Shown here in pieces: positions 7,905 through 57,810 of a DNA stretch of 64,000 nt. This DNA is from Agroathelia rolfsii (taxonomy: Eukaryota; Basidiomycota; Agaricomycetes; Amylocorticiales; Amylocorticiaceae). Under the pieces are notes generated by a model that was given only the letters and a program-made list of their open reading frames with translations, was not told the DNA's origin and ran no database searches. Location of the stretch: assembly GCA_018343915.1 (NCBI GenBank), contig JABRWF010000001.1:992001-1056000 (forward strand), written 5' to 3'. How positions within the stretch are numbered: position 1 is the first letter of the stretch; each line of letters starts with the position of its first letter. The translations under genes were made by a program, and so were the position numbers.

Positions 7905-8545
7905 AGACTACCTAGCCACAAGTCATCTGATCACAAAATTGAGTTGCTTGATGAAACCAAGCTCAGACAAGGGTGTGTATACCCCCTCAGTAGTAACGAA
8001 ACTGATGCACTCAATGAATGGATAGATGACAACCTAGCTAAGGGGTATATTCATAAATCCAAAAGTGAATTCACTACCTCAATGTTCTTTGTCCCTAAGA
8101 AAAATGGGAAGCTTTGTCCAGCTTAGGATTACCAAGCCCTCAATAAGCAGACTATCAAAAATGCATATCCCCTCCCTCTGATTTCCAAAATCGTTGAATA
8201 CATAACCAAGTTCTGCTGGTTTACAAAAATCAACCTACGAGCTGGATTCAACAATATCCAAATTAGGGAAGGGGACAAGCACAAGGCTGCCTTTATTACA
8301 TCACAAGGGCTTTTTGAACCCTTGGTTATACCTTTCGGCCTCTGTAATGCTCCCTCCTCTATGCAGGCTTTAATGGACAACATTCTCCTCCACCTGGTTC
8401 AATTAGGATTTGTCTGGGTTTACATTGATGATGTCATTATTGGAGCTGAAACTAAGGAAAAACTATACAAAGTTACACGGGAAGTTCTTTCCATCCTGAG
8501 AAAACACAACCTCTATAGCAACCTAGACAAATTCAAAGTAGAGAA
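7905..8545 (+). pseudogene. GYP-1 pol, reverse transcriptase
   Basis: RT landmarks in order: YPLSSNETDALNEWIDDNL, SMFFVPKKNGK, INLRAGFNNIQIREGDKHKAAF, FGLCNAPSSMQALMD and the catalytic YIDD in WVYIDDVIIGA. An in-frame TAG follows KNGKLCPA. The family order protease, RT, RNase H, integrase places it in Ty3/gypsy. The frame breaks at 8546 at the tandem tTRIM insertion and resumes at 17395. Confidence 0.8.
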
Positions 8546-8668
8546 TGTTATAGTCAGAAGAATTCACACTCTAGTAATGGCAAGATAGCTCAGTTGGTAG
8601 AGCACCTGTATATATAATGGGAGGCCCTGGGTTCAATTCCTAGTCTAGCCAATTTTCTAGTTTTATCA
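8546..8668 (+). repeat. tTRIM LTR 1
   Basis: It is 123 bp, starts TGTTATAGTCAG and ends TTTTATCA. It consists of 33 bases, a 73-base tRNA-like sequence, then 17 bases that include TTTT runs resembling Pol III terminators. Confidence 0.9.
8579..8651 (+). tRNA. tRNA-like sequence inside tTRIM LTR
   Basis: The 73 bases fold as a cloverleaf without an intron: acceptor GGCAAGA/TCTAGCC (6 of 7 pairs), D arm GCTCAGTTGGTAGAGC, anticodon arm CCTGT/ATGGG with two G-T pairs, T arm CTGGG/CCTAG. The A box region (TAGCTCAGTTGG) and B box (GGTTCAATTCC) match Pol III consensus. The anticodon loop is ATATATA, formally anticodon ATA, with T at position 37, so a working translational tRNA is unlikely. It is better read as a promoter module of the element. 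Confidence 0.7.
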
Positions 8669-8682
8669 GGTTATGAGCCCTG
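8669..8682 (+). promoter_or_regulatory. tTRIM primer binding site, initiator tRNA-Met half
   Basis: GGTTATGAGCCCTG directly follows the LTR. It is complementary to the anticodon stem-loop of eukaryotic initiator tRNA-Met (CAGGGCTCATAACC in yeast). Drosophila copia is known to prime from such an internal tRNA-Met fragment. The COP elements here share GGTTATGAG. Confidence 0.7.
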
Positions 8683-8807
8683 AACATGCTAGCCCAATGA
8701 GAACAATGCTTATATAAGCAGGCACCTATAAGGAGCATCCATTTGGAGCAGAAATACTAAGAAAATTGGTTTCCAAGTGAAGACACAGAGTGTGACTTCA
8801 GGGGGAG

Positions 8808-8930
8808 TGTTATAATCAGAAGAATTCACACTCTAGTAATGGCAAGATAGCTCAGTTGGTAGAGCACCTGTATATATAACGGGAGGCCCTGGGTTCAATT
8901 CCTAGTCTAGCCAATTTTCTAGTTTTATCA
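8808..8930 (+). repeat. tTRIM LTR 2 (middle, shared)
   Basis: It is 123 bp with a tRNA-like sequence at 8841-8913. A polypurine tract, CAGGGGGAG, lies directly before it. It differs from LTR 1 at a few transition sites. Confidence 0.9.
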
Positions 8931-9029
8931 GGTTATGAGCCCTGAACATGCTAGCCCAATGAGAACAATGCTTATGTAAGCAGGCACCTATAAGGAGCAT
9001 CCATTTGGAGCAGAAATACTAAGAAAATT

Positions 9030-9876
9030 TGTCAAGGGTCTACTCCTTGACTATGTTACGTTGGGCATAGAGAGCCTACTTGTGACACAACCAAATAATA
9101 AACGCTCTCAACACCAAGACTAAGTACCTAAGAAAATAAGTTTTCCCACAGGTACGCAAATCCCTTATCTATTGGGGTGCACTGGGTACTCTGCTTAAGT
9201 TCTTACGATGCTCTTATGAATAATTCTCACACGCTTACGAGGGGATTTGCACCACCTCCTAGTATAAGGAAAAGGGAGAGAGAAAGGGAGAGTGTGCTAG
9301 GACGAGGGGCCTAGGCCTGAGGAATATACCCTGAAGGCAAAGTTTTTATTAGTAATCTATCTAATGAATACAATCCTTGGTTACTTGCCTGAAGGCAAAG
9401 AGGTCAAAGCTGAGCTCTTCAGGACAAGTTACATGCACTTTTTATACTACTATGGAATGGTCCGTGTGCGGCATGGATGGTCTGTGCACAGAGGGAAATA
9501 GAAGCATAGAATGTAGCAATGCAGGGAAAGAGCTTTTACCCTAACTCCACCGGGCATCCGTGTGGAGATCCGTTTCCAGACCAATACCGGTAATCATTAG
9601 GAATTGCTCAGGGAAGGAAGGCTGTGTTCCTGGGCTGTGCATAATGTTGAAATAGAAGTTTGCGCAGCCCCGAGATTACTCCTGTGACGTGCGGCTTGGT
9701 ACACGTGAGGGCCAATCACATGACCACTGCACTGCCCACAGTCCACGCCCTAAAGGGGTAACTTTTATAAGGAAAATAATAGGAAAAGAAAGGAAAATGT
9801 AATAATTAAATAAGTAGTAGTCCGAATAATACAAGAAAATAACCGAAAAATTGGCGAAAATTCCCAACTCATGACA
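9030..9876 (-). repeat. GYP-2 3' LTR
   Basis: It is 847 bp, reading TGTCAAGGGTC...ACTCATGACA on the plus strand. It matches 16375-17221 closely, with scattered transitions. A TATA box lies about 30 bases before the self-primer tract, as in the 5' LTR. Confidence 0.92.
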
Positions 9877-9896
9877 TTACCCCCTTCCTAAGGGGA
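9877..9896 (-). other. GYP-2 polypurine tract
   Basis: On the minus strand AGGAAGGGGGTAA runs straight into the LTR start TGTCATGAG. This is the expected plus-strand primer of an LTR retrotransposon. GYP-1 has a similar tract, GAGAAGGGGGTAA, at 20985-20998. Confidence 0.75.
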
Positions 9897-12800
9897 TTTC
9901 CTCTGGAACATCCCAAGTTCCCATGTTCCTCCGATCTTTTCCGTTGTCTCCGTAAAGTTCTCTATTGGTCTGAATGGTAAATCCGCAAAGACTGCAGCCA
10001 ATAAGCGTTTAGGTGCTTTGGGATTTTTTTTGTGGAAGTCCCTGATTAGTCGTGGTGCATTTGTAATGTTTGATTCCTTTTCCCACGAATCTTCTCCAGG
10101 ATATCCTCTCTATTCGACTAGGTATTCGAGCTTCTTGGTTCTTGGGCTTAGGCGGCTATCTTTGATACGCAAGACCTCATGTTCTTCTTCTCCTTCTATT
10201 TCCACAACCTCTGGGACGGGTACAAGGGGTCTAGATTCCACCTGGATATGTGGTTTGATTAAGGATACGTAGAACACATCATGGATCGTCCACCTTTTTG
10301 GAATCGCAAGCCGTACTGCCCGGTTTCCAATGAGTTCGGTGATCTTGTATGGTCCGATCCATTTTGCTCCGAGCTTTTTTGAGGGTTGTGCCAATTTGAT
10401 GTTCTCAGTGCTTAACCAGACCTTATTTCCCACAGCATATTTCGGAATTTCTGATGCGTGTTTGTCGAAGAAGTACTTCATTTGACTTACTGCATAGTCC
10501 AGGGCTGCCTTGGCGTCTTCTTGGAGCTCCTTGACTTTTTCCGTCCACAGTTGTGCTCCTTCTGTACTAGGGATTCCTACCGTTGTAAGGTTCATTTGGG
10601 GGGAGAAGCCGTAGTTCATTTCAAAAGGGGAGGAGCCTGTGGAAGCCTGTTGTCGGTTATTGAGCGCAAATTCCGCCAAAGGGAGGAGGCCTGCCCAATT
10701 ATCCTGCCGGTGGGAAATGTAGTTTCGGAGATAGACTTCGACTTCCTGGTTGAGACGTTCCGTTTGACCATCAGATTGCGGGTGATAGGCGGTGGACAGG
10801 GATGTCTTGATTTCCAGTCACTTGTGGATTTCCCTCATTACTTTTCCTGCAAACTGGGGTCCACGGTCCGAAGTCCATTGTTTAGGTAACCCGTGTAACC
10901 GGAAAACGTGTGCCAAATAGAGATCCGCCATTTCTGATGCCGTAATTGCTTCAACACAGGGTATCAGGTAGCACATCTTGGTCAGCCTGTCTACTACCAC
11001 TAAAATGGAATCGAAGCCTTGTGATTTTGGGAGTTTGACAATCATGTCGGAAGTAACGTGTTCCCAAGGTCTTTCAGGGGTTGGCAAGGGCGCTAGAGAT
11101 CCTACGGGCATAGATTGGGCTGTTTTAGAGGCTAGGCAGTTTGGGCATAAGGCAACATAATCATTAACTGCCTTTGTGAGTCCAGGCCACCAATAATTTC
11201 GGGAGACTAGTTCAAGGGTTTTGTGACGGCCGGGGTGGCCTGCTGACGGGACATCATGGTGTAATCTGATTATGTCATTGTGGAGCGTGGTATCACGTGG
11301 TACGTAAACCTTGCCAAGGTGCAGGATTAAACCATTTTCTTCATTCCATTCTTCTAACCCCTTTTGCAACTTGACCGGGCCAAGTTCCTTGACCAATCCT
11401 AAAGCGTTTGCTATTTCCGCATCTCTTCCCTTGCTTTGAATTCTGTCCAGAATATTCTTTTCTCCTTGTATTTCTATATGACCCCTTCTTGCGGCATTGA
11501 TTCGAAACAGTTTAGGATCTAAGACAACTTGGTCAAGGTTATCTTCTTCATCGGATCGTTGAAAATCCGGTCGGCAAGAAAGAGGGTCAGTGCGGCCGTT
11601 TTCGGATCCTCGGAGATAGGAGATAGTAAACCGGAATTTGGAAAGGAAGAGAGACCACCTTGCTTATCATCTGGTTAAGTTCCGAGCTGTTTTCCAGTAT
11701 TCCAGGTTTTTATGGTTGGTCCGGATTTTGAAGGGGTATGGGAGACCAATAAGGTAGTGGCGCTAAGCATCGAGAGCTCTGATAATACCTAACATTTCTT
11801 TGTCCCAGATGTTGTAATTATGTTCTGCATCATTCATGGCTTGGGACAGAAATGCAATTGGTCTCCACGAGCTGTCTTCCTGCTTCTGGAGGAGTACGGC
11901 ACTGGTGGCGAAGTTGGAGGCATCGGTTTCTAAGCGTGTTTCAGCAGTCTAGTTGTATGCTCCTAGTACTGGGGCTGAGGTAAAAGCTTTCTTCAGGCTA
12001 TCAAATGCTTCTTGTTCTTCCGGACCCCATTTCTATTCGGTTTTGCCGGTTAGCCGATCCAGGGGTTTACAGATTTGAGCAAAGTTCCAAATGAAGTGCC
12101 GGTAGTAGTTCGCGAGACCACGGAAACGTCGGACATCAGAGACCTTCTGGGGAACAGGCCACTCCAGAACCGCTTTAACCTTTTCGGGTGTCATACGGAT
12201 TGAGCCAAAGGAGACCAAAGCGCCTAATATGTCTACTTCGAGAACATCGTACTCAAACTTCTCGAGGTTTGTGAACAGATCATTTGCTTTGAGGACACTT
12301 AGTACTTCCAGGACTTGTTTGCATAGTTCAGCTTCTGTTTGTGCCCCGATAATGATGTCATCAATGTAATGGACCATCCATCCTAACTGGTTGAACTTGT
12401 AAAAGAGGTCGTCCATCATGGTTTGCATAGTCGCTGGCGCATTGTATAAGCCGAATGTCATAACAGTTGGCTCAAAAAGACCTTTGTTGGTGATAAATGC
12501 CGCTTTATGCTCGTCTCCTTCTTGAATTCGGATATTGTTGAAACCCCATCAAAGGTCGATTTTGCAAAAGGTTCGGAACTTAGTCATCTTATCTTGGAGT
12601 TCAGAAATAAGTGGGAGAGGGTAAGCATTTTCGATTGTTTCAGCATTAAGCTTCCGGTAGTCTTGGATGGGTCGAAGGGTACCATTCTTTTTTGGGACAA
12701 AAAACATTGGAGCGGCAATAGGGCTTTCTGATTTTCTGATGTACCCTTTCTCAAGGTTTTCTTTGAGGTAGTCTACCAACGCTTCTTCTTCTTTGACTGA

Positions 12801-13423
12801 AAGAGGATAGGCCTTGCTTCTTCGGAGTTGTGCTCCATCTTTTAGCTTGATCTTGTGGTCCCAAGGTTTTCTGAGTGGCATTCTTTGGGAGGCTTCCTTG
12901 GAGAAGACGGGCGCGTATTCTGATGCCCATTCTGGTAGGAGGCTGGAGGCAATGGTCATGCGGTCTGGGTGTGTGACTTTTCCTGCAGACCAGTCTATTA
13001 CTGGATTTTCCAACCGGAGCCAGTCTATTCCGAGGATTACGTTCTCAGGTCCTATATCTGTGACCAAAAAGGGAAGCTTCTTTTGGATACCCCCAATGCT
13101 TGTTTCAAGAATGGTAATTTCTTCGATTCTGCCTTGAGCATTTAGCAAATTGTCTATGTTATATACAGGTATGGTACAAGGTAATTTTTTTGTTTTTATT
13201 TTGTTTTCTTTTACAAACCGAGAATGGATAAAGAAAGAGGAAGCTCCTGAGTCTATTATTGCTACTGTTACAAGGGAGGAGAACTGTCCATGGAACATAA
13301 TAGGGATATGGAGGTGCTGTCCATGCGCACCAGAAATTGAAACTGAGTTAAGGGAGAGGAAAGAAGAAAAATGATTAGAGAGATAGGGGTCGGCCGAAAT
13401 GGCCCTTTCCGTCAACCCTTCTA
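9884..13423 (-). pseudogene. GYP-2 pol: protease, RT, RNase H, integrase, chromodomain
   Basis: Pol is in the -1 frame after gag. From 13415 downward: protease with AIIDSGASSFFI; RT start PMFFVPKKNGTLRPIQDYR; RT core with MVHYIDDIIIGA near 12360; RNase H region with TDAS near 11920; integrase zinc part (HPGRHKTLEL...CPNC) and catalytic D (TSDMIVKLP), D (TSDRGPQF) and E (SDGQTERLNQE) at 10720-11300; linker; chromodomain LEYLVE...GYPGEDSWE at 9990-10130. The frame is interrupted near 12550, 12033, 11950, 11766, 11676, 10818 and 10125. Nearly all stops fit Arg, Gln or Trp codons hit by C to T on one strand. The polyprotein would process, copy and integrate the element. Confidence 0.88.
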
Positions 13424-13430
13424 AAAACCC
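13424..13430 (-). promoter_or_regulatory. Candidate -1 frameshift heptamer, GYP-2
   Basis: G GGT TTT is followed at once by the gag stop TAG (13421-13423). Slipping back one base puts translation into the frame of TERAISADPY and the protease. The same heptamer is at the GYP-1 junction. Confidence 0.65.
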
Positions 13431-13574
13431 GCTTTATCCTTAAATGCGGCAAGCGCCATGGCCTGTTGTTCTACTAAGGCTTGTAGATCGGCCATTGTCA
13501 TCGTAGAAGATCCTTCATTGATGTCGTCATTGGCAGCAGAGGTGCCTAGTTGGTCAGCTGTCGGAGCAGGGGGT

Positions 13575-14582
13575 TGTCAAGGCTTATGCGCTTGACTAAT
13601 CCAATGAACACAACCCTCTGTAAGGTACAAGGGTGGGCTGTAAAGCCGGGTTTTACGTGTATGACTTGGTTGGATATATACAAATACCCACGTGCTCCCG
13701 TTGCTACCCTTTCATAATAGGGCACTCCCTTAGTACTTTACTAAGCTCGTGTATCGGTACTCTAGACGTTTTAGTCTTCCCGTGTTACTCGCTTCATGTC
13801 AAATACTGTGGTTGCGCTTCTTACTCAGAATAGGCGGCTTAGCCCACCGTGGTCTACAAATGTTTGCAGGGACTTGTTACTGCCCTGGCCTAAGTGAATA
13901 GGACTTCTTATCATACGTGTGCCCTCTAATGTATTAGGGACTTGCAGACTTAATGTGCCTTCTTGTATCAAGGCTTAATACGCTTACTAAGATGCCCTAA
14001 AGGCCTTACTCTTAATAAGAAAGGGGGGGAGAGAGAGAGGTTGGGCTAGGATGTGTGTAAGCCTAAAGGCAAAATATATTAGTTATATGTAGGGGATACA
14101 AGTGGGGAGGGTGCCCTTACCTGAAGGCGAAAAGGTTGAAGCTAAGGTTCAGGTAAGGGCTACATGCTTGTATTTATACATAAATGAAAGGGCCCGTGCG
14201 CAGCCTTGATGGTCTGTGCGCAGCCGGGGTTCGTAAGCAAGATCGTGTCAAATGCAGGGGCAGTGCTTTGTGACTAAGTCCGATGAGCAACCGATTGGAG
14301 TGATGAGTCTAGTACTCCTTAGTAATTGCACAGTGATCGGAACGACCCTGGTTCCTGAGTCTAGACCTTTTGATGAAAAGGAATGATCTAGACTCCGCCT
14401 TCCTAATATACTCTTGTCACAAGCACTCCTGTCACGTGGGGCTAACACAGCCAGTCACACGCGCGTCAAGATGTCGCCTGCAAGGTATTTTGTCCGTATC
14501 TCAGTCAATAAAAATCGTAAAAATACAATAAAAATATGTACATGTTTGTAAGAAAAAGGCAAAAAATGTCCAACTCATAACA
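13575..14582 (-). repeat. GYP-1 solo LTR, TSD GGGGT
   Basis: It is 1,008 bp, reading TGTCAAGGCTT...CAACTCATAACA on the plus strand. GGGGT flanks it at 13570-13574 and 14583-14587. It splits GYP-2 gag, so GYP-1 was active after this GYP-2 copy arrived. Confidence 0.92.
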
Positions 14583-15914
14583 GGGGTGCTGTCATTGTGG
14601 TTGCCTGGATCCTTGGCTTGGAACCTTGGTATCTCGAAACCCTAGGATTCATGCAGTTAGAGGCGAAGTGCCTCCATTGTTGGCAGTTATAGCACTGCAC
14701 CGTGCTTAGGTCACGAGGTGGACGACGAGAGCCTTGGGGAGCTGTGCCAGATGGGGGGAGGGGGGCTTGTGTAGCATTGATAGTGATTGGATTTGCTGCT
14801 ATTCCTTGGTTCTGGAAACGAGGTCGGGGTTTCCAGCCATCGGTCCAGATTCCCGCGTCTCGAAGCCCTTCTTCGGCATCAACCGCAGCTTCCATCAGGT
14901 GTTCCAGTGTGTCTCGGCGTTCCTTCGGATATCCACTGATTACTCCCTTGATTTTTGGGGACAAAGCTTGCCAGTATCGCACCCTAAGGTCCTCATCCGA
15001 CAATTTGGTCTGGTTCGCAAGGGTAGAGAAGGTTGCCGTAAAGTCCGCGATTGAGGATGTGCCCTGCTTCAAGTCCTGTAGTTTTTGTAGGGCGATCCTA
15101 CCAAAGTCTCTTGCACCATATAACGCTTTAAACTTGGCATATAGGTCTTTTTCAAAGTTGAATCCTTTTGTGTCAATGACGTCATCAAACTTCTGACTCC
15201 AAGCTTTTGGAGCGCCTTCTAACAGTCCTACAAAGAACCTGGCCTTTGTGTAGTTGGTAGCATAAATCTTTGGATTGAGTTTTATGTGGTTCTCAAATCC
15301 AAAGACAAACGACTGGTATTTTGACCAGTCTCCTGACCATTTCTCGGGAGCTTGTCCTATCTCCTTAGGGGTAGACAATGATGCGACGGTAACAGGGGCT
15401 GGTTGCTCTCGTTCAAGGAGGTCAGCAAAGCACACCTGAGTTTCTTGCATCTGCTCCATAGAAGCTTGGATGCGGGCTTGGTTAGATTGGAGAAGTACCA
15501 GGATCTGGCCTAGTTCTTGTGGTAGTGACATCTCAGCAGGTTCTTCTTCTTTGAGGGCTTCTCTGCATCTTTCTCTGCGGTGTTCGCGGTGGCTTTTAGA
15601 AGGAGAGGGGTGCGGTACGACGGGTGATTCGGGATACGAGGCTTCTGTAGTAAAGCGCCGACGGAATTCAGAAGGGGAGGGATATTCTGAAGGTGCTTCT
15701 TCTTGCCCTTCTGGAGTTTTGGGGGGGGATGCTTGAGTGGAGATGGCTTCTTCGCCGGATTCCTCTTCCTCTTCTTCAGAAATATGCGGAGCTGAGCTCG
15801 ACGCGACTTCTCTTGTGACCTCGGGGGGGGGAGGCGGTGGACTTGGCGGCCCAAGGGACCGGTACTTCTTTGGGCTGATAGGATGTGCCCTTACATGTAC
15901 TCATTCACAGAGCG

Positions 15915-16361
15915 TGATACGGTTTTCTTCGTCACCGGTGGTCGTACCGGTTTCCAGATGCGGTCAGCGAGATTTTCTTCTTCTTCTGGGGCTAGAGCTT
16001 GCCCGTATAGTAGTCACACAAAAATCACGCAAAAGTTTGAATGGCAGGGGGGGATGGTAAAAGTGCCACTCACGCTTAGCAATAATAAACTTTAATTCCC
16101 AGTGGGAACTCCTAGAACACCAGACTTTTTAGGCCTGTATTGTGCTTCAGATACAGCCAGAAAATCGCGTAGGACGTATACGCTATTTCTGTCTAGACGG
16201 AGTTGTAAACAGGCTTTGGAGGGCTCTGCACAATGGCTTTCTAAAGTAGTTTATTACTTACGTGCTCAGAAGTTGTTTTATGTAAAAGGAAAGAATGCGC
16301 TCTTTGTAAGCAATCACTAATTGCTTCTTCTCAGACCGCGAGAGTCCGAGGGAGGCCTGGT
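15915..16361 (-). other. GYP-2 5' leader, no gene seen
   Basis: About 450 bases lie between the primer site and the likely gag start. I see no coding signal. It should be the untranslated leader and packaging region. The GYP-1 leader (1176-1576) is of similar length. Confidence 0.5.
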
Positions 16362-16372
16362 AGCTTCAACCT
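16362..16372 (-). promoter_or_regulatory. GYP-2 primer binding site, self-priming type
   Basis: AGGTTGAAGCT on the minus strand begins two bases after the LTR. It pairs with AGCTTCGACCT (16746-16756) in the R region with ten Watson-Crick pairs and one G-U. The R tract lies about 30 bases after a TATA box (16784-16791). Confidence 0.55.
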
Positions 16373-16374
16373 AA

Positions 16375-17221
16375 TGTCAAGGGTCTACTCCTTGACTATG
16401 TTACGTTGGGCGTAGAGAGCCTACTTGTGACACAACCAAACAATAAATGCTCTCAACACCAAGACTAAGTACCTAAGAAAATAAGTTTTCCCACAGGTAC
16501 GCAAATCCCTTATCTATTGGGGTGCACCGGGTACTCTGCTTAAGTTCTTACGATGCTCTTATGAATAATTCTTATACGCTTACGAAGGGATTTGCACCAC
16601 CTCCTAGTATAAGGAAAAGGGAGAGAGAAAGGGAGAGTGTGCTAGGATGAGGGGCCTAGGCCTGAGGAATATACCCTGAAGGCAAAGTTTTTATTAGTAA
16701 TCTATCTAATGAATACAATCCTTGGTTACTTGCCTGAAGGCAAAGAGGTCGAAGCTGAGCTCTTCAGGACAAGTTACATGCACTTTTTATACTACTATGG
16801 AATAGTCCGTGTGCGGCATGGATGGTCTGTGCGCAGAGGGAAATAGAAGCATAGAATGTGGCAATGCAGGGGAAGAGCTTTTACCCTAACTCCACCGGGC
16901 ATCCGTGTGGAGATCCATTTCTGGACCGATACCGGTAATCGTTAGGAATTGCTCAGGGAAGGAAGGCTGTGTTCCTGGGCTGTGCATAATGTTGAAATAG
17001 AAGTTTGCGCAGCCCTGAGATTACTCCTGTGATGTGCGGCTTGGTACACGTAAGGGCCAATCACATGACCACTGCACTGCCCACAGTCCACGCCCTAAAG
17101 GGGTAACTTTTATAAGGAAAATAATAGGAAAAGAAAGGAAAATGTAATAATTAAATAAGTAGTAGTCCGAATAATACAAGAAAATAACCGAAAAATCGGC
17201 GAAAATTCCCAACTCATGACA
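16375..17221 (-). repeat. GYP-2 5' LTR
   Basis: It is 847 bp and ends ACTCATGACA on the plus strand. It holds a TATAAAAA box (16784-16791, minus strand) and the self-primer tract (16746-16756). Confidence 0.92.
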
Positions 17222-17266
17222 AAATTGGTTCCCAAGTGAAGACACAGAGTGTGACTTCAGGGGGAG

Positions 17267-17389
17267 TGTTATAATCAGAAGAATTCACACTCTAGTAATG
17301 GCAAGATAGCTCAGTTGGTAGAGCACCTGTATATATAACGGGAGGCCCTGGGTTCAATTCCTAGTCTAGCCAATTTTCTAGTTTTATCA
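17267..17389 (+). repeat. tTRIM LTR 3 (3' end of tandem array)
   Basis: It is 123 bp with a tRNA-like sequence at 17300-17372, preceded by the CAGGGGGAG polypurine tract and followed by the TSD GAGAA. Confidence 0.9.
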
Positions 17390-17394
17390 GAGAA

Positions 17395-32524: not shown

Positions 32525-33230
32525 GTATGTGGCAACTCAGAAGGGAGGACATTGCCGGTAATTCTGTCATAAGAGTTCGCAAATATTGATGTGCACAATT
32601 GGGACGTTTGGCGGCTGGGTGCATTGGCAGGTCATAATATAGTTAGCTAAAACTCAATACTATAAATGTCAAGGCTTGTGCGCTTAACTTATCCAACAAA
32701 CACAACCCTCTGTAAGGTATAAGGGTGGGCTGTAAAGCTGGGTTTTACATGTATTGCTTGGTTGGATTTATGACAAACACCCACATGCTCCTGTTGCTAT
32801 CTTTTGTAATGGTATACCCTAATAGCCTACTTTGCTAGAATTGCGTTTGGTACTCTAGACCTTGTAGTCTTCCTGTGTGCTTTCTTTGCATTAAATAGGT
32901 TATTCTGGTATTTCTTACTCAGAACAGGTGGCTTAGCCTACCATGGTCAACTGATGTTCATAGGGACTTGTTACTGCCCTAGCCTAAATGAATAGGGCTT
33001 AATATCACATGTATGCCCTCTGATATATTAGGGACTTATAGACTTTAGGCCTTTTTATATCAAGGCTTATATATATACTTACTAAGCTGCCCTAAAGGCC
33101 TTACACTTAATAAGGGATAGGGGGAGAGAGAGAGGGGGGTGTGGCTAGGATGGATATAAGCCTGAAGGTGAAAGTTATATTAGTTTTTATATAAGGGATA
33201 TAAGTAGGGGGTGTGATAAAACTAGAAAAT

Positions 33231-33303
33231 TGGCTAGACTAGGAATTGAACCCAGGGCCTCCCATTATATATACAGGTGCTCTACCAACTGAGCTATCTT
33301 GCC
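33231..33303 (-). tRNA. tRNA-like sequence in tTRIM 3' LTR
   Basis: The same 73-base cloverleaf as at 8579, with intact A box and B box text and a TATATATA anticodon loop. It is unlikely to act in translation. Confidence 0.65.
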
Positions 33304-33492
33304 ATTACTAGAGTGTGAATTCTTCTGATTACAACACTCCCTCTGAAGTCACACTCTGTGTCTTCACTTGGGAACCAATTTTCTTAGTATTTCTGCTCCA
33401 AATGGATGCTCCTTATAGGTGCCTGCTTACATAAGCATTGTTCTCATTGGGCTAGCATGTTCAGGGCTCATAACCTGATAAAACTAGAAAAT

Positions 33493-33565
33493 TGGCTAGA
33501 CTAGGAATTGAACCCAGGGCCTCCCATTATATATATAGGTGCTCTACCAACTGAGCTATCTTGCC
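33493..33565 (-). tRNA. tRNA-like sequence in tTRIM 5' LTR
   Basis: The same cloverleaf. The anticodon arm reads CCTATATATATAATGGG, so one stem pair is lost relative to the other copies while A and B boxes are kept. Confidence 0.65.
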
Positions 33566-33957
33566 ATTACTAGAGTGTGAATTCTTCTGATTACAACAGG
33601 GTGCCCTTACCTAAAGGCAAAAAGGTCAAAGCTAAGGTTCAGGTAAGAGCTACAGGCTTGTATTTATACATAAATGAAAGGGCCTGTATACAGCCTTAAT
33701 GGTCTGTATATAGCCGGGGTTTGTAAGTAGGAACATGTAATAATGCAGGGGCAGTGCTTTGTGTCTAAGTCCAATGAGCAACTAATCAGAATGATGAGTC
33801 TAGTACTCCTTAGTAATCACACAGTAATCAGAATAACCCTGGTTCCTAAGTCTAGACCTTTTAATGAAAAGGAATGATCTAGACTCCGCCTTCCTAATAT
33901 ACTCTTGTTACAAGTACTCCTGTCATGTGGGGCTAACACAGCTAGTCATATGCATAT

Positions 33958-38525: not shown

Positions 38526-38648
38526 TGATAAAACTAGAAAATTGGCTAGACTAGGAATTGAACCCAGGGCCTCCCATTATATATACAGGTGCTCTACCAA
38601 CTGAGCTATCTTGCCATTACTAGAGTGTGAATTCTTCTGATTACAACA
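38526..38648 (-). repeat. tTRIM solo LTR, TSD CCTAA
   Basis: A lone 123-bp LTR with CCTAA at 38521-38525 and 38649-38653. It shows that this tiny LTR undergoes LTR-LTR recombination, or can insert alone. Confidence 0.92.
38543..38615 (-). tRNA. tRNA-like sequence in tTRIM solo LTR
   Basis: The same 73-base cloverleaf with A box, B box and TATATATA loop as at 8579. TTTT follows it on the minus strand. Confidence 0.65.
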
Positions 38649-40362: not shown

Positions 40363-40683
40363 TGTTGAGGGATACAATCCGAACATTTACATTTGTATAT
40401 ATCTTAATTGTTGCCCTTCTATTTTGTTTCTCTTTTATTTCCTCTCTTAATTGACGAGCACCTACGATACACGTCACATGACTTTACATACTAAATCCGT
40501 ATGCTTCCGACTTATGCCGCTTCAGTTCATTGTTATTTACTGAAGCGTGCGTATGCCTTATTATAATTTTTCTCCTACTTTTACTAACACTATTGTAGTA
40601 ACTTTGTGTTAGGTATAAATAATATAGAGTTCATTGTTATTCACTGAAGCTAACTTTGTGTTAGCTTTGCCTTTCATTCAACA
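40363..40683 (+). repeat. COP-A 5' LTR
   Basis: TGTTGAGGGATAC...TTCATTCAACA. TATATAT at 40396-40402 could position transcription inside the LTR, so almost all of the 5' leader is LTR sequence. Hairpins GCTTCAGT/ACTGAAGC flank a predicted intron. Confidence 0.95.
40547..40612 (+). other. Predicted spliceosomal intron in COP-A LTR (66 nt)
   Basis: Donor GTGCGT, a perfect TACTAAC branch site at 40582-40588, acceptor TGTTAG. The length is typical of basidiomycete introns. It lies between two copies of the hairpin text TTCATTGTTATT, at the same relative position as in COP-B and COP-C. No transcript evidence is available. Confidence 0.5.
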
Positions 40684-40693
40684 GGTTATGAGC
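40684..40693 (+). promoter_or_regulatory. COP-A primer binding site overlapping the Gag start
   Basis: GGTTATGAGC directly follows the LTR and is complementary to the initiator tRNA-Met anticodon region. The ATG within it (40688-40690) is the best Gag start codon. Confidence 0.65.
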
Positions 40694-43600
40694 ACCTCAA
40701 CGGCTTCCAGCGCATCCGAATCAAGCTCGTCAACAGTGCGGATCACGAAGCTTGACGAAAGCGGCGAAAACTGGCTTCTGTACTCCCGCCAGCTCAAGTC
40801 ATACGTTATTGGACGTGGTCTCAAGCAGTACCTCTCTGGAGAAGCAGCCCCACCCAAACGCCCCTCCACCACCCTCGACAAAGAAGGGAATCCCATAAAG
40901 GTTGAAGATCGCAATCTCACCGAGTACCAGAAGACGTACGATGCATGGGAGGTGAAGGATGAGCAAGTACGAACAGTGCTATATCAGACCATCCCAGAGA
41001 CTTTGCAAATGGACACCATTGACTGTAGCACAGCTGCAGACGTATGGAAGAGCCTATGTGACCGCTTCTCAGAGGACGACGACCTTATACAGGCAGACTA
41101 CAGTGGACTCATCCACTCCATGAAGTGCCCCGAGGGTGAAGACCCACGGAAGACAATAGACAAGATGCAACGACTGCGTAAGAAACATGCAGCTGCTGGA
41201 GGCACGATGCAGGACAAAGAGTTCGCGGCAGCAATCTTACGGGCTATGCCCAACTCATGGCGCGAATCAATTCGAACCTACCGACAGCATCAGCGAACAA
41301 GCAAGATTGCTCTCTCGTCAGTCGATGTCATCAAGACCATTCGGCTTATGGCCCAAGATGATGAAACATTGATGAGAAACTCACACTCATCAACGACAAC
41401 GTCTTCAGCACTTATGGCACGCATGGGCTCACACCAGAAGGGGAAGTCTCCTCTCACCTGTTCGAACTGCAGTAGACCAGGTCACGCGATTGAAGACTGT
41501 TGGTCGAAAGGGGGAGGCAAGGAGGGTCAGGGCCCAAAGCGTTTTAGGCGTCCAAAAGGAAAAGGAAAGGCCAGTGCAAACGTGGCTACAACCAATGCTC
41601 AACCAGCTACTACAGCTGAAAATGAGTATGCCTTCGTAGCAACAACAGCTAGCGCAGCAAAGCCTATGGACAGCAAATCCGGGGGTCAACATGTCCGTTT
41701 ACTTGACTCTGGAGCCTCACGTCACTTCGAGCCGGTACGGGAGAACTTCACCACATATCACTCGATACCCCCAATCACAGTCATGTCTGCCGATGGTCAC
41801 AACTGTCAGGCCATTGGCGAGGGGGAGGTTCCTGTCAAAATCCAGACAAACAAGGGTGAGATTACCCTGCGCCTGTTACGAGTGTTGCACGCACCTTCAA
41901 TGTCCCAATCACTCGTCTCCGTGAGCGCAATGACACGAGCAAAGTTTGCCGTGCATTTCAAAGGTCGAGCCGCCCACATCTACTCCCCCGCTGGTGACGA
42001 AATCACCTGTATCCCCGAGAAGGAAGGCCTATACCCTATCGAGGGCCAGACCACCACCGTACCATCAAAATCCACACCCGTCAAGCCAAACACACCTACC
42101 GCAATGGCTGTTGCACCAACCAAGGTGTCAATAGCTGAGTTCCACCGTCGCATGGGGCATGCCAATGCTCCAGCCCTGCAGAAGATGATCAAAGACGGCA
42201 TTGTCAATGGCGTAGAGATTACAGATAGAGACTTGCCTGTCTGTGAACCCTGCATTCGTGCCAAACATACCCGCAAACCATGTCCGCAGGAGAGCATCAC
42301 ACCATCGTGCACACGCTATGGTGAACGCGTACACAGCGATGTATGGGGACCAGCACAGGTGAAATCGTTGGGTGGGAAGAGCTACTATTGCTCATTTATC
42401 GATGACTATACGGATGAGGTGGTCCTGCACTTCATATCAGCAAAATCTGAGACTTTCGATCGATACAAGGCTTACGAGTCGTGGGCCAAGGTGCAACGTG
42501 GAGCTCCTAACATCAAGGAACTCCAGACCGATCGAGGGGGAGAATACACCAGCGATGCATTCAATCGTCACCTCGAAGCCGCTGGCACCATACGTCGTCT
42601 TGCGGTGCATGATTCCTCGCAACAAAATGGAAAAGCAGAGCGGCTAAACCGCACGCTTGTCGAGCACATGCGCGCAATGCTATTAGACGCAAGTCTACCA
42701 CAGTTCCTGTGGGCAGAAGCACTGCGACATGCAGCGTGGTTGAGGAACAGAACGACAACAGCAAACACACCTGGCTCAACGCCCTACGAAAAAGCCACAG
42801 GTCAAAAGCCTGATCTCTCGCACCTCCGCCGTTTTGGTGAGACCGCTTGGGTACGACTTGAGAATGCCGGCAAGCTGGAACCGCGTTCTGTTGCCGCACA
42901 TTGGCTCGGATATGACACAGAGAGCAAGGGCCATAGAGTCTACTGGCCTGAGACTCGTCGCATCTCTGTTGAACGCAATGTCCGCTTTGGCAGAAGAAGG
43001 CCAGGGGCCGTCGTACGCATTGAGGGGGAGGAGCAGAGTGTTAGTTCCAACTCGCACGACAGCCAAACGGGCGATAAAACCACCGCACCATCACAACCAT
43101 CCACCAAATCGCGTCCACCATCTCCTATCAAGGGTATGGCCGACCTACCACAGCCCTCAGCTGACAACAGCAAACCGACCGAGCCTGAAAACCAACCGGA
43201 ACCGTCTGAGAAAGGTCCAGAACTGGCTCCACCGGCGGTTGAGACTATGGAGGAGTTGGGGAGAGGAAAGCGGACCAAGAAACCCTCACCTATCCTGAAG
43301 GCCATACAGCAGGGGGAGGGAAGCACAGGCGATAAAGCGACGAAGAAAGCTGACAAGACCCCGACTACACCGAGTGCAAAAGCCGCAATCACCAAGATGA
43401 TCACGGAGTGGTTGGTGGAAGACGATGGTGCTGATGAAGTTATTCCAACAGCGATGGCTGCAATGGCTGGCGACGAGCCATCTTTTTGAGAGGCTCTTGC
43501 TGGACCCGACAGAGATCGCTGGATCGAGGCATGTGAAGCAGAGTTAACGGCGTTAGAGAAAACGGGAACGTTCGAGCTGGTTGCGAGACCTAGTGACGAT

Positions 43601-45037
43601 GACGTCAACATCGTTGGTAACACGTGGGCGTTACGCCGCAAGCGTGACAAGAATAACGTGATTACCAAATACAAAGCCCGGCTATGCGCACAAGGCTTTA
43701 CGCAAGTGCCCGGCCTCGACTACCACCAAACGGCTGCCCCTACTGCTTGCACCTCATCTCTCCGCTTGATTCTCTCAGTCGCCGCTATCGATGACCTGGA
43801 ACTACACCAGGTAGACTTCAAGAATGCATACCTCAATGCCGATCTCGACGACGTGACTATCTACATGAAACAGCCGACTGGTTTCGAGCACCCCGACAAG
43901 CCGAATCATGTTTGGCAACTCAAGAAGGCGTTGTATGGACTCAAACAGGCTGGGCACCAGTGGTACCGCAAAGTCTGTGAGTTATTTCATAGTGTCGGAC
44001 TAACGCGGTCGAAATACGACCCCGCCGTGTTTTTCAAGATCACACCTACGTCTACTGTCATTGTCGCCGTCTATGTGGACGATCTCACCATTGCAACCAC
44101 GACAATCAGCGAAATGAACACACTCAAGAAGCAGCTCGCCGATCGTTACGAGCTTGCCGACCTCGGTGAAGCTCGTTGGCTTCTGGGATTCGAAATACGA
44201 CGCGATCGCGCTGCCCGTACACTCACCATGTCCCAGGGGGCGTACATCGACCAGCTCTTGCTACGAGCTGAGATGCAAGACTGTCGGACGCTTGACACGC
44301 CGATGGACGTTCATGTCCACCTCTCCACGAAACCACCAACCGAGGACAAGCATGAAGCTATGAAAGGGAGGCCCTATTCGGCCCTCGTCGGCTCACTGCT
44401 GTACGCGGCTGTTGGAACTCGTCCAGACATTGCGTTTGTGACGTCCCAACTAGCCCGTGTTCTCTCTTGTCCCACACCCGCGCATTGGAATGCTGCACGC
44501 CGCGTTATTCGATATCTCAAAGGCACACGCGACGTCGGGCTCACATTCAGTGCAGCCAATCATGCTGGTCTCGAAGCATTCACGGACGCGGATTGGGCCG
44601 GACAGGAGGACAGACACTCTATCTCGGGTGCTGTCTTTATGTACGGTGGAGCCGCTGTCAGCTGGTCTTCAAAGAGGCAATCTTTAATTGCTCTCTCTTC
44701 AACTGAGGCTGAATATATTGCCGCGACGGACGCGTGTCGTGAGCTATCATGGCTTCGACTACTTATCAAGGAACTCACCCATCACGAGCTTCCTAACACC
44801 ATCACCCTACACTGTGACAACCAAAGTGCCATCGCCCTTGCTCGCAACGGACTCTACAGCGCATGTACAAAGCACATCGATATTCGCTACCATTATATAC
44901 GTGAGGCTGTGGCTCGTGGCGACATCAACCTACAATATCTTAACACCAATGAAATGCGTGCGGATATGTTCACCAAGGCGTTACCGGTATCAAAACTTGA
45001 TTATTTCAAGCATTTGGTGGGTTTAGGCACGGATTGA
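40688..45037 (+). pseudogene. COP-A Gag-Pol polyprotein, one in-frame stop
   Basis: 1,450 codons including the terminal stop, interrupted by TGA at 43487-43489 between integrase and RT. Order: Gag with LYSRQLKSYVIGRGLKQYL; CCHC knuckle CSNCSRPGHAIEDC near residue 259; protease LLDSGASRHF near 339; zinc part of integrase HRRMGHANAPAL...CEPCIRAKH; integrase core D (HSDVWGP), D615 and E651, spaced D-35-E; RT with VDFKNAYLN and YVDD near 1128; RNase H with TDADWAGQEDRHSISG, STEAEYIA and CDNQSA. The stop falls where COP-B has Arg (a CGA to TGA change would suffice). An upstream in-frame ATG at 40634 lies inside the LTR and is less likely. Truncation removes RT and RNase H, so this copy should not move alone. 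Confidence 0.93.
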
Positions 45038-45044
45038 GGGGGAG

Positions 45045-45365
45045 TGTTGAGGGATACAATCCGAACATTTACATTTGTATATATCTTAATTGTTGCCCTT
45101 CTATTTTGTTTCTCTTTTATTTCCTCTCTTAATTGACGAGCACCTACGATACACGTCACATGACTTTACATACTAAATCCGTATGCTTCCGACTTATGCC
45201 GCTTCAGTTCATTGTTATTCACTGAAGCGTGCGTATGCCTTATTATAATTTTTCTCCTACTTTTACTAACACTATTGTAGTAACTTTGTGTTAGGTATAA
45301 ATAATATAGAGTTCATTGTTATTCACTGAAGCTAACTTTGTGTTAGCTTTGCCTTTCATTCAACA
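45045..45365 (+). repeat. COP-A 3' LTR
   Basis: It is 321 bp, starting directly after GGGGGAG and ending CAACA before the TSD TAATG. Confidence 0.95.
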
Positions 45366-46965: not shown

Positions 46966-47319
46966 TGTTGAAGGGCAAAGCTGGATTATAAATATGTGTA
47001 ATATTTTATTCCTTTCTCCTTTCTCTTAATTCTCATGGAACGATGCGCTACGGACATTTTACCTTACGAATGTATATTGCTCGTTACATGTTTTGCTTCC
47101 GTGTCACATGACTAATGTTTATACTGACGCGTCCGCACTTCGTAGCGCTCCATCTGTTTGTTTCTTACTACAGTTGGAGTGTGAGTTATTATTCTTTTGT
47201 TTCTCTTTCGCACCTCTAATTCCTTTATAGTAATATTATATTAGGTGCAATAAACATCTGTTTGTTTCTTACTACAGTTGGAGTTAATATTATATTAGTA
47301 TTCTCCCTTAATTTTAACA
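46966..47319 (+). repeat. COP-B 5' LTR
   Basis: A TATAAATA box at 46987-46994 lies only about 20 bases from the LTR start, giving a short U3 and long R-U5. Two copies of CATCTGTTTGTTTCTTACTA (47151 and about 47249) flank a predicted intron. Confidence 0.95.
47181..47244 (+). other. Predicted spliceosomal intron in COP-B LTR (64 nt)
   Basis: Donor GTGAGT, branch CTAAT at 47216-47220, acceptor ATTAG. It sits between two hairpins (CTCCA-CTG/CAG-TGGAG) in the 5' leader, upstream of the start codon. Confidence 0.5.
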
Positions 47320-47328
47320 GGTTATGAG
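47320..47328 (+). promoter_or_regulatory. COP-B primer binding site overlapping the Gag start
   Basis: GGTTATGAG directly follows the LTR. The ATG at 47324 is the first codon of the 1,476-codon ORF. Confidence 0.65.
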
Positions 47329-50300
47329 TACGAACGCTTCCACGTCCGTCAAGTCTACTCGCTACCACTCTACTAGCCGCACAACTCACGTCCGGCTACC
47401 TCATCTTGCTGATGATGGATCAAATTGGCTTCTCTACTCTAAGGAGATGTCCAATTACCTTACCTCGAAAGGACTCAAACGCTTTCTCAATGGCACCACA
47501 AAAGTCCCTATATATCCACCTAATACAAAGGATGAAAAGGGCAATGAGGTCAAGCCAACAAGTGACCGAGTCAAAGCTTATGAGGAGGAGGTTGATGAGT
47601 GGGAAGAGAAGGACAAAGACGCGCAGGTCACGATAACGCAGACTCTCTCAGAGACTCTCAAAATCGAAGTTATCGATTGCGTGACTGCAGCCGGCATGTG
47701 GGCCATCCTTACAAAGAGGTTCACACAGGTCAACTTTATGACCAAAGCCGAGTTCATCAAGAAGATGTTCATGACCCAATGTCTTGAAGATGGAGACCCG
47801 CGCGATACCATCAACGAGCTCGAACTCCTACGCAAGCAACACGCCAGCGTTGGAGGGAAGATTGAGGATGGAACATACTCCTCAATCATCCTTATGGCTA
47901 TGCCTGAACGCTACAAACCCCTCCTTCTTTCCTACCTTAGTGGCAAGGAGGCCGCTAATATCGACCCTACCGCTGACGATATCGTGAAAGCCATCCGCTC
48001 CATAGCGCAGGATGACAAGACCCTTGGCAGCAATGCCACCCAACCTACACCATCAGCAGCACTTGTTGCAGCTGCCCCAGCCTCTCAATCTAGCTCATCA
48101 AAACCACCTGGAAGAATGAGCAAGGACTCACTGCAGTGCTACAACTGCAAGCAGTTTGGGCACTCAAAACCCGAATGTCCTACCAGAGGGGGGGGGAAGG
48201 AGGGACAGGATCAGGGACAGGGACAACATCGAAGCAAAAAGAAGGGTAAAGCGAAAGCGAAAGCAGCAGTAGCAAAGGCGGCCGACAGCGACGACGAGGA
48301 TGATGAAATTTATGCATTCGCAGTGGCCACAAACTTCTCTGTGGTCGCACATGCAAATTCGACTGGCAGCAAGTACACTCGCCTTCTAGATTCAGGTGCA
48401 TCAAAACACTTCGAACCACGGCGAGAGAACTTCACGACGTACCGAGAAATCCCACCATCCCCTATCACATCAGCCGATGGCCACACGTTTCAAGCCATAG
48501 GGGAAGGAGAGGTCATTATCCGTGTTAAGACCAACCGCGGCCATGCTAAGCTCAAGCTGCAAAAGGTCCTACATGCCCCGTCAATGCCAACAGCGCTGAT
48601 ATCAGTCAGTGCAATGATGAAAGCGAAATACGATATGCATTTCAAATCCGACCGCGCAGCTCACCTTTACTCTCCGGAGGGCCAGCTCATCATCCGCATT
48701 CCCGAGAAAGGTGGCCTCTTCCCTATTGAGGGGGAGGCAATAGTCCCATCGAAGGAGAAGAAATCGTCCAAACCAGGGTCCACACCCCAGTCTGAACCTG
48801 CCAGCGCCATGTCAGCTACGGTGAAGACAAAGATGACTATGGCTGAGTTCCATAGATGCATGGGTCATGCGAACGCACCTGCACTGCTGAAGATGGTGAA
48901 GGAGGGAGTAGTTGAGGGAATTGAGCTCACCGAAACCGACATGCCAACATGCGAGGTCTGCATAAAAGCAAAGCACGCACGTACCTCGTTCCCCAAACAA
49001 CGATCCAGCCCCCCAACTACCCGCTACGGCGAACGCATTCACTGCGATGTATGGGGACCCGCTCAAGTACGCTCGACGGGCGGCAAATATTACTACGCCA
49101 CCCACCTCGATGACTATACAGATGAGGCAATGATCCTATTTATGTCAGCCAAATCTGAGACATTCGAGAAATACAAGACGTACGAAGCATGGGCTAAAGC
49201 CCAGAGAGGGTGCTCCGTGATCAAGGAGCTGCAATCGGATCGAGGAGGCGAATATACGAGCGAAGAATTCACTCGGCATCTCGAAGCCCAGGGGACTGCT
49301 CGTAGAATGGCAGCACACGACTCACCACAGCAAAACGGCAAGGCCGAGCGCCTAAACCGTACCATCGTCGAACACGCTCGAGCCCTCTTATTTGACGCCC
49401 AACTACCCAAGTCCATATGGCCAGAGGCTATACGGCATGCGGTGTATCTTCGCAATCGAACGACAACAGTCCAGACAAAGGGTACAACACCGTACGAGCG
49501 CGCAACTGGTCAGAAACCAGACCTCTCTAAGCTACGGCGCTTTGGAGAGACAGTATGGGTGAGGGTTGAAGGAGCTGGAAAGCTTGATCCTAAATCGACA
49601 TCGGCGAAGTGGCTTGGAATCGACACTGAAAGTAAGGCGCATCGAGTTTACTGGGAAGGAACCGGACGCATTTCTGTCGAACGCAACGTCAGGTTTGGCG
49701 ATATGCCGAAGACCGTCGTATCCGTTGAGGGGGAGACGCAGACCACAATGACTGTGAAGACCACCAGAAACGACAAGAAACCAGACAAGCCGAGCGTTGA
49801 GGGGGAGCAAGCAAAGACCTCTCCTAGTGAAGGTCAGACCCCCGTCGAGCCCCTACCCGCATCAGGATCGTCATCAGCTGAACCGGCAATCGAGAAAGCC
49901 GGCAATGACGCAACCGAGTCACAGCCTCAGCCACAGGCCCAGACCGTGCCTGAGCCTGAACCCGATACCAAATTGCGCCGATCCGAGCGAGAGCGCAAAC
50001 CCACCCAGTGGGCAAAGGATGTTCAGAAGGACAGCAAGGCCAACGGTGGACGAGGAGCGCAGAAAATTCCTAAGAGCTTGATACCAGCAATTGCAAAGCT
50101 GGCAATGAGTTTTGAGGATGTTGATGAGGATGAGTGGACTGTTGAAGGCGACGACGCCGACACCAGCCCTCTGTTTGCCCTAGCAGCAATGGTTGGAGAC
50201 GAGCCTACATACAGGCAGGCAATGGCGAGTCCAGACCGCAATCAGTGGATATCAGCATGCGAAGCAGAGCTCGACGCGCTACGCAGGACGGGCACATATC

Positions 50301-51754: not shown

Positions 51755-51761
51755 GGGGGAG

Positions 51762-52115
51762 TGTTGAAGGGCAAAGCTGGATTATAAATATGTGTAATAT
51801 TTTATTCCTTTCTCCTTTCTCTTAATTCTCATGGAACGATGCGCTACGGACATTTTACCTTACGAATGTATATTGCTCGTTACATGTTTTGCTTCCGTGT
51901 CACATGACTAATGTTTATACTGACGCGTCCGCACTTCGTAGCGCTCCATCTGTTTGTTTCTTACTACAGTTGGAGTGTGAGTTATTATTCTTTTGTTTCT
52001 CTTTCGCACCTCTAATTCCTTTATAGTAATATTATATTAGGTGCAATAAACATCTGTTTGTTTCTTACTACAGTTGGAGTTAATATTATATTAGTATTCT
52101 CCCTTAATTTTAACA
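51762..52115 (+). repeat. COP-B 3' LTR
   Basis: It is 354 bp with no difference seen from the 5' LTR. TG...CA ends. Confidence 0.95.
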
Positions 52116-52817: not shown

Positions 52818-53160
52818 TGTAAAATGCTAATGCCAATATTAAAACTTCAGTTTATTGTAATGAACTGGGTATATACCTAATGCCAATATTAAACTATAGA
52901 AGTAATGAGCATAGAAATAGAAGTGAGGAAATATAACAGGATACTTACACTTCAGTTTATTGTAATGAACTGAAGTGTGTCGAAGGAGAAAACAACGGAG
53001 AAAAGGACGCGTCAGTCATGTGACGCCGGAAGCAAAATAACATGTACCGTATCCGTATAGAATTAATGCAACAAATAAAAGGAGGAAAAGACAAGGAAAT
53101 GAAGTGAAACAAGTATGAGTTATAGATGAAATGAATATTATACTGCTTGGAATCACAACA
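52818..53160 (-). repeat. COP-C 3' LTR
   Basis: 343 bp, reading TGTAAAATGC...ATCACAACA on the plus strand. Confidence 0.95.
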
Positions 53161-53167
53161 CTCCCCC

Positions 53168-57463: not shown

Positions 57464-57467
57464 AACC
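57459..57467 (-). promoter_or_regulatory. COP-C primer binding site overlapping the Gag start
   Basis: GGTTATGAG on the minus strand directly follows the 5' LTR. The ATG is 57461-57463. Confidence 0.65.
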
Positions 57468-57810
57468 TGTAAAATGCTAATGCCAATATTAAAACTTCAG
57501 TTTATTGTAATGAACTGGGTATATACCTAATGCCAATATTAAACTATAGAAGTAATGAGCATAGAAATAGAAGTGAGGAAATATAACAGGATACTTACAC
57601 TTCAGTTTATTGTAATGAACTGAAGTGTGTCGAAGGAGAAAACAACGGAGAAAAGGACGCGTCAGTCATGTGACGCCGGAAGCAAAATAACATGTACCGT
57701 ATCCGTATAGAATTAATGCAACAAATAAAAGGAGGAAAAGACAAGGAAATGAAGTGAAACAAGTATGAGTTATAGATGAAATGAATATTATACTGCTTGG
57801 AATCACAACA
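57468..57810 (-). repeat. COP-C 5' LTR
   Basis: 343 bp. A TATAATATT box lies at 57784-57792, close to the LTR start. The hairpin CTTCAGTT/AACTGAAG is present, and its text occurs twice around the predicted intron. Confidence 0.95.
57527..57598 (-). other. Predicted spliceosomal intron in COP-C LTR (72 nt)
   Basis: Canonical donor GTAAGT and acceptor GGCATTAG. The branch site is weaker (CTCAT). It lies between hairpin copies as in COP-A and COP-B. Confidence 0.45.

Follow-up and report, generated by a model that had tools for sequence, protein, structure and literature searches.

A miniature LTR retrotransposon with tRNA-like LTRs in Agroathelia rolfsii, a likely member of the Helenus group

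We analyzed a window of 64,000 nucleotides of the Agroathelia rolfsii genome (C1:992001-1056000 of a 37.7-Mb assembly in eight contigs, C1-C8). Self-comparison of the window revealed at 8546-8930 a unit composed of two LTRs of 123 bp surrounding an interior of 139 bp. The first LTR (8546..8668, on the + strand like all parts of this copy) has TG...CA ends and contains a tRNA-like sequence (8579..8651) that is recognized by Rfam RF00005 with 52.1 bits and by ARAGORN, and that is followed by two runs of four T (T4). Within it we take TAGCTCAGTTGG to be the A box and GGTTCAATTCC to be the B box. The interior (8669..8807) begins with a primer binding site (PBS), GGTTATGAGCCCTGA (8669..8683), whose first 14 nt pair with the host initiator-Met tRNA (iMet) at linear positions 26-39, and it ends with a polypurine tract (PPT), AGGGGGAG (8800..8807), which abuts the second LTR (8808..8930). 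Self-comparison and inspection of the flanks indicate that this second LTR is common to both units of a dimer. It is followed by the first 99 bp of a second interior (8931..9029, locus L004), which is broken by a nested LTR retrotransposon, by the remainder of that interior with its polypurine tract (17222..17266, L012) and by a third LTR (17267..17389) carrying a tRNA-like sequence at 17300-17372 (RF00005). The nested element (9030..17221, - strand) does not belong to the miniature element; it is of the Gypsy type according to its gag and protease domains, its two LTRs of 847 bp (9030-9876 and 16375-17221) are 97.4% identical and its target-site duplication (TSD) is AAATT. The dimer itself is bordered by GAGAA on the left (8541..8545) and by the identical GAGAA on the right (17390..17394). 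The span 8546-17389 is a single dimeric insertion (LTR-interior-LTR-interior-LTR) that was later split by the nested element and, by our reading, it sits in a Gypsy reverse-transcriptase region.

Two further copies lie on the - strand of the window. Copy 2 (33214..33598) is a complete LTR-interior-LTR element, 97.9% identical over 385 bp and flanked by GGGTG (+ strand letters) at 33209-33213 and 33599-33603. Copy 3 (38526..38648) is, from self-comparison and its flanks, a solo LTR with the TSD CCTAA (+ strand letters). A first-pass annotation of this DNA had described a 385-bp LTR-interior-LTR unit with TG...CA ends, a primer site, a polypurine tract and 5-bp TSDs, inserted three separate times. 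Every one of these features is present in the sequence, and GAGAA, GGGTG and CCTAA are all exact. The longest open reading frame touching copy 2 is 40 aa, so that the element, at less than 1000 bp, is a TRIM without mobilisation proteins. In each of the six LTRs of the window TTTT occurs at LTR positions 108-111 and 116-119, 3' of the tRNA-like sequence, and no T4 run was found on the sense strand of the interior as counted on copy 2.

ARAGORN and RF00005 both identified six tRNA-like sequences in the window, one per LTR, with RF00005 scores (52.1-55.2 bits) above the gathering score of 29. The first-pass annotation had presented this part of the LTR as a complete cloverleaf and as a tRNA gene. 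Its tRNA-like character holds, with the tRNA calls, both boxes and the trailing T4 runs; the term gene is doubtful because the anticodon, AUA ('Tyr') within the loop AUAUAUA, belongs to a sequence whose likeness to the host locus that we read as tRNA-Tyr (L048, which starts with a C at position 1; score 13.5) does not exceed its likeness to other tRNAs of the host. In a comparison with 30 tRNA loci, five of them TRIM copies, the best score outside the TRIM was 19 and those of the TRIM copies were 61.5-69.5; the AUA anticodon agrees with neither an isotype nor a host counterpart. An A-A mismatch interrupts the acceptor stem (seen in the sequence and unpaired in the predicted fold), the commonest form of the sequence has G-U pairs in two stems, and its RNA fold is no more stable than that of shuffled sequences (z +0.49). 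A genome search with the 73-nt tRNA-like part returned 34 matches at E<=10, every one inside copies of the TRIM family, and neither these matches nor the 30 tRNA loci include a donor tRNA or a SINE from which it could derive. The possibility raised by the first-pass annotation that the tRNA is a chance passenger of a few copies is not borne out by this search. One might suppose that the whole repeat is a device that spreads a working tRNA-Tyr-AUA gene decoding UAU, the LTR structure being secondary, given that a full tRNA is called by ARAGORN and Rfam in all six window copies and that the best copy, L040, reaches 62.4 bits with anticodon and T stems that pair perfectly by our reading. We consider this very improbable in view of the AUAUAUA loop, the score of only 13.5 against L048, the acceptor-stem mismatch and the restriction of all matches at E<=10 to the family; disagreement with the isotype is moreover reported for many families of the Helenus group of TRIMs (PMC10886601). 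That the tRNA-like part is a working tRNA or was captured recently is unlikely in view of the AUA loop, the stem defects and the confinement of all 34 matches to the family. The natural reading of the tRNA-like part is use as a promoter, putatively for Pol III. TRIM LTRs that mimic tRNA genes also call for caution by tRNA annotators: of the 63 genomic tRNA matches that were scored, out of 1248 tRNA candidates, 27 are TRIM LTRs as counted by eye.

Searching the genome with the TRIM gave 28 matches that we merged by hand into 23 loci, joining the halves of one interrupted copy or the overlapping halves of a dimer as one locus. Inspection of the flanks revealed exact 5-bp TSDs at 18 of the 21 evaluable loci. 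Among the others, L020 agrees at 4 of 5 bases and L007 and L022 have no match; truncation of L010 and L028 precluded their evaluation. Several TSDs were read by eye from the flanks, and those of L008+L027 and L011+L024 allow for a mutated second LTR base. With exact TSDs at 18 of the 21 evaluable loci, the outcome that the first-pass annotation named as a refutation, other genomic copies devoid of TSDs or LTR structure, did not arise, and the unit is a real miniature LTR retrotransposon, not a chance arrangement. Both dimers and solo LTRs with TSDs are present in the family.

We then joined the flanks of 17 loci after removal of the element and of one TSD copy and searched for relatives of the resulting empty sites. 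Among the sequence stretches compared, matches reaching across the junction by at least 10 bases on each side exist for 10 of the 17 joined sites, and for 7 of these 10 at least one spanning match is free of gaps. Six spanning sites were aligned letter by letter, L001 with small gaps and L016 with only 30 bases of left flank; the ten include L020 and L022, whose TSDs are inexact, and in L025 the join is one base off. A genome-wide search of six of the remaining seven sites, the seventh being L023, recovered a spanning relative for three (L014, L015 and L017) and none for L013, L018 and L021, so that in total 13 of the 17 tested sites have an uninterrupted relative. The empty relative of L015, which is on C7, is C6:802430-802586 (85% identical), probably on the homeologous chromosome. 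A tRNA-derived SINE or a tandem duplicate of a tRNA gene could also be short, repeated and tRNA-bearing and could appear as a dimer, merely resembling an LTR element. The probability that we attach to such an origin is negligible: TG...CA ends, a PBS and a PPT at the LTR borders and the uninterrupted relatives of insertion sites all stand against it, and the fixed 5-bp TSDs together with the solo LTRs refute it.

Between the two LTRs of one insertion, 0-10 of the 123 positions are different (nine pairs compared), and among the 31 near-complete LTRs 7 are identical to the line of commonest bases. Since LTR pairs differ so little and these seven LTRs match that line exactly, the TRIM was active recently. 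Differences from the commonest-base line are G>A or C>T in 49 of 67 cases, an excess that suggests cytosine methylation or a RIP-like process.

Among the 31 near-complete LTRs the T4 runs are unchanged in all 31, the B box GGTTCAATTCC in 28 and the A box TAGCTCAGTTGG in 25. This corresponds to 0 differences per site in the T4 runs, 0.0117 in the B box and 0.0215 in the A box, compared with 0.0176 over the whole LTR. Such conservation is weak evidence for function; in a family so young, conservation of the boxes carries little information. Alternatively, Pol II might transcribe the element, as an ordinary TRIM, from the region upstream of the tRNA-like part, which is only 33 bp long, the tRNA-like part being an old passenger that entered the LTR and spread with it. 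This would fit an A box that is no better conserved than the background. It would also fit the upstream stretches, which by eye are AT-rich or TATA-like at host tRNA loci, with little of this kind in the LTR. We nevertheless judge a Pol II start unlikely. Both boxes and the trailing T4 runs are kept in most near-complete LTRs, and all six window LTRs score above the Rfam cut-off. Many Helenus families, and Cassandra with its 5S sequence, are arranged in the same way (PMC10886601, PMC7215508). As for termination, the first T-run after host tRNA loci is T4 at 12 of 25 loci and T5 or longer at 13 of 25, some of these loci being homeologous pairs. T4 may thus represent the leaky end of the host terminator range. 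It may also be an efficient terminator, since it is the first T-run at 12 of the 25 loci, and this would count against read-through.

To place the PBS on the host's own iMet genes we searched the genome with the yeast initiator-Met tRNA. Two full-length matches of 85% (C1:3995775-3995846 and C2:3959792-3959863) and a third match covering positions 6-60 (C3:495653-495707, 89%) were found. In all three, GGTTATGAGCCCTGC lies on the opposite strand and covers linear positions 25-39 of the tRNA, which makes the TRIM PBS complementary to iMet positions 26-39 with a mismatch at position 25. From this 14-nt complementarity we predict half-tRNA priming of the copia type. Three Copia elements of the window have related end signals. 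The first (52818..57810, - strand; self-comparison and domains) has 100% identical LTRs, an open frame of 1431 aa, the TSD TACCG, the PBS core GGTTATGAG and the PPT GAGGGGGAG followed by the LTR start TGTTGTGAT. The second (46966..52115, + strand, TSD GAGTA) has an open frame of 1476 aa, and in the third (40363..45365, + strand, TSD TAATG) the frame is split into 951 and 459 aa; both share the PBS core and PPT of the first. Thus all three window Copia elements have GGTTATGAG at the place of the PBS and GAGGGGGAG followed by TGTTG at the other border, and the purine tract and LTR start of the TRIM (GGGGGAG followed by TGTTG) are the same as in 3/3 of them. Neither the GGTTATGAG core nor this border was found in the one Gypsy-type element examined (9030-17221). 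Among the Copia elements of the window, the end signals of 52818..57810 are the nearest to those of the TRIM and make it a candidate for the helper type.

The fit of the window Copia PBS to the host iMet covers the first 9-10 nt only, compared with 14 in the TRIM. Two Copia open frames, each 1359 aa long (C8:3206489 and C1:730752), have an exact copy of the TRIM PBS 2.7 kb before their reverse-transcriptase (RT) match. Comparison of the TRIM with 38 Copia stretches (eight PBS stretches and 30 RT loci) revealed nothing in common beyond the 14-15-bp PBS, the next-best hits having E values of 1.8 or worse. Allowing 3 mismatches, the pattern of PPT plus LTR start has 142 sites in comparison with 152 for a reversed control; since this is no higher than the control, the agreement with Copia rests on the position of the pattern. 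An apparent resemblance of the TRIM to the end of the L063 Copia was rejected, its score of 21 falling short of the 95% level of shuffled sequences (22). The LTRs of the window Copia elements (40363-45365, 46966-52115 and 52818-57810) are 99.7-100% identical and each element has 5-bp TSDs. Near-identical LTRs and two open frames (1431 and 1476 aa) argue for recent Copia activity. Relatives of the Copia polyprotein are distant, with 17 proteins at E<=1e-50 and a best identity of 41%.

In all, we consider it likely that the repeat is a Helenus-type TRIM, that is, a non-autonomous LTR retrotransposon of 385 bp with a tRNA-like putative promoter that is mobilised by Copia proteins and primed by iMet. 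In the mechanism that we propose, transcription would start just before the tRNA-like part, presumably by Pol III, and part of the transcripts would end at the pair of T4 runs close to the LTR end. Other transcripts would continue through these runs in the 5' LTR and stop at their counterparts in the 3' LTR, and such read-through RNA would carry R at each end, as strand transfer needs. To judge from the end signals, this RNA could be packaged and copied by host Copia proteins. The first strand would be primed by the 5' half of the initiator-Met tRNA on GGTTATGAGCCCTG, to which it is complementary, and the plus strand would begin at the GGGGGAG tract found at the expected border. Integration produces the 5-bp target duplication seen at the loci. 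Because the putative promoter sits in the transcribed repeat, every new copy would gain two fresh promoters. Recombination between LTRs, their usual cause, would account for the solo LTRs and dimers.

The PBS of the TRIM pairs with the anticodon arm of iMet, as in Ty5 and Drosophila copia; unlike these autonomous elements, which encode their own proteins, the TRIM encodes none. In both of these Copia elements priming takes place at the anticodon loop of a tRNA (PMC10886601). TRIMs with tRNA-like LTRs were named Helenus by Kojima in 2024 (PMC10886601) and were reported from rusts, Agaricus and Coprinopsis, with Agaricomycetes among the hosts. A HIS4-type frame of the present genome gave 1318 protein hits; among the 120 listed, those that carry an organism name (Hericium, Auriscalpium, Cerioporus, Mycena, Lactarius, Stygiomarasmius, Armillaria and Hebeloma) are all from Agaricomycetes, at 56-61% identity, and the best hit of the list reaches 91%, in keeping with a host of this class. 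They make 5-bp duplications, primer sites for the iMet anticodon loop are dominant in fungi, and the Pol III promoter is stated to be unvalidated for the published families (PMC10886601). The idea of such elements is therefore already published, and the A. rolfsii TRIM probably adds a further member, matching the features described there. Like Helenus it is a TRIM under 1 kb with a tRNA-like sequence within both LTRs, it retains an A box TRGCY...YGG and a B box GGTTC, and it has a PBS and a PPT at the inner LTR borders (GGTTATGAGCCCTG compared with the host iMet, and GGGGGAG before the 3' LTR). It shares with fungal Helenus the 5-bp TSDs, a PBS to the anticodon region of tRNA-iMet, solo LTRs and the disagreement with the isotype. 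It differs in its AUA anticodon, a type without mention in the accessible portion of PMC10886601, and, unlike LTR-1_PTrit and Copia-9_PGr, its interior has no Copia homology among the 38 stretches compared. Besides Kojima 2024 (PMC10886601) we found no account of tRNA-bearing Helenus retrotransposons in the literature searched.

The plant TRIM Cassandra carries a 5S rRNA promoter in its LTR (PMC7215508, PMC10853983); its LTRs contain terminators, and its multi-unit transcripts are presumed to read through the LTRs (PMC7215508). The A. rolfsii element resembles it as a miniature with putative Pol III promoter and terminator signals in the LTR and with tandem LTR-interior arrays. It differs from Cassandra in its tRNA-like instead of 5S sequence, in its fungal host and in a PBS that fits the anticodon arm of iMet, whereas the PBS quoted for Cassandra is TGGTATCAGAGC. 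The suggestion of the first-pass annotation that the element is a tRNA counterpart of Cassandra with a putative Pol III promoter is still the best reading of the tRNA calls, the census, the TSDs and the iMet PBS. The TRIM adds a well-resolved TRIMp3 example with young copies bearing TSDs, empty sites, dimers and solo LTRs, and with a primer site compared with iMet genes of the same genome. A small, near-identical family in a 37.7-Mb genome should be a handy test bed for the Helenus Pol III promoter.

Three TRIM LTRs, L009/L026, L010 and L008/L027 (near C4:4379128, C1:1059277 and C1:41544), carry within their tRNA-like part a DNA transposon with inverted repeats of 211 bp that start with CACTGAGTGACA and with a TA duplication. 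Twice the transposon lies at the same TA of the A box. The far end of the L010 insertion was not found.

Comparison of ten pairs of tRNA loci showed that five have flanks 85-91% identical over 1.4-3.1 kb, namely one pair each for C6/C7, C1/C2 and C4/C5 and two pairs that link the ends of C2 and C8; the other five pairs have little in common beyond the tRNA. It appears that the assembly consists of two homeologous sets of chromosomes, with the pairing of C3 and C8 assigned by elimination alone. All 23 TRIM loci are on C1, C4, C7 or C8, which hold 48% of the bases (binomial 4e-8, a merely indicative value because the loci are not independent samples). The same four contigs carry all 83 sites of the DNA-transposon ends (up to one mismatch). 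Each of the eight contigs has Copia RT matches, 34 of the 102 lying on C1, C4, C7 and C8 and 68 on the other four. The simplest reading of this distribution would be a hybrid genome with parent-specific elements. That the TRIM and the unrelated TA-target DNA transposon are confined to one homeologous set of a hybrid or two-nucleus genome is a tentative proposal, to which we give somewhat less than even weight. If it is true, the TRIM multiplied within one parent without passing into the partner set, although Copia RT is common in both, and the strain would be a natural test of silencing of a Pol III-driven TRIM or of nuclear confinement after hybridisation.

Within contig C1, the region C1:1-1100000 holds 16 of the 23 TRIM loci, compared with 10 of 102 RVT_2 and 19 of 150 RVT_1 matches, the last two counted by eye and the RVT_1 matches being the 150 scored out of 358 candidates. 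The window also contains two related tandem arrays with a unit of ~100 bp, at 23687-23886 and 31541-31721, and the regions around them repeat each other at about 88%.
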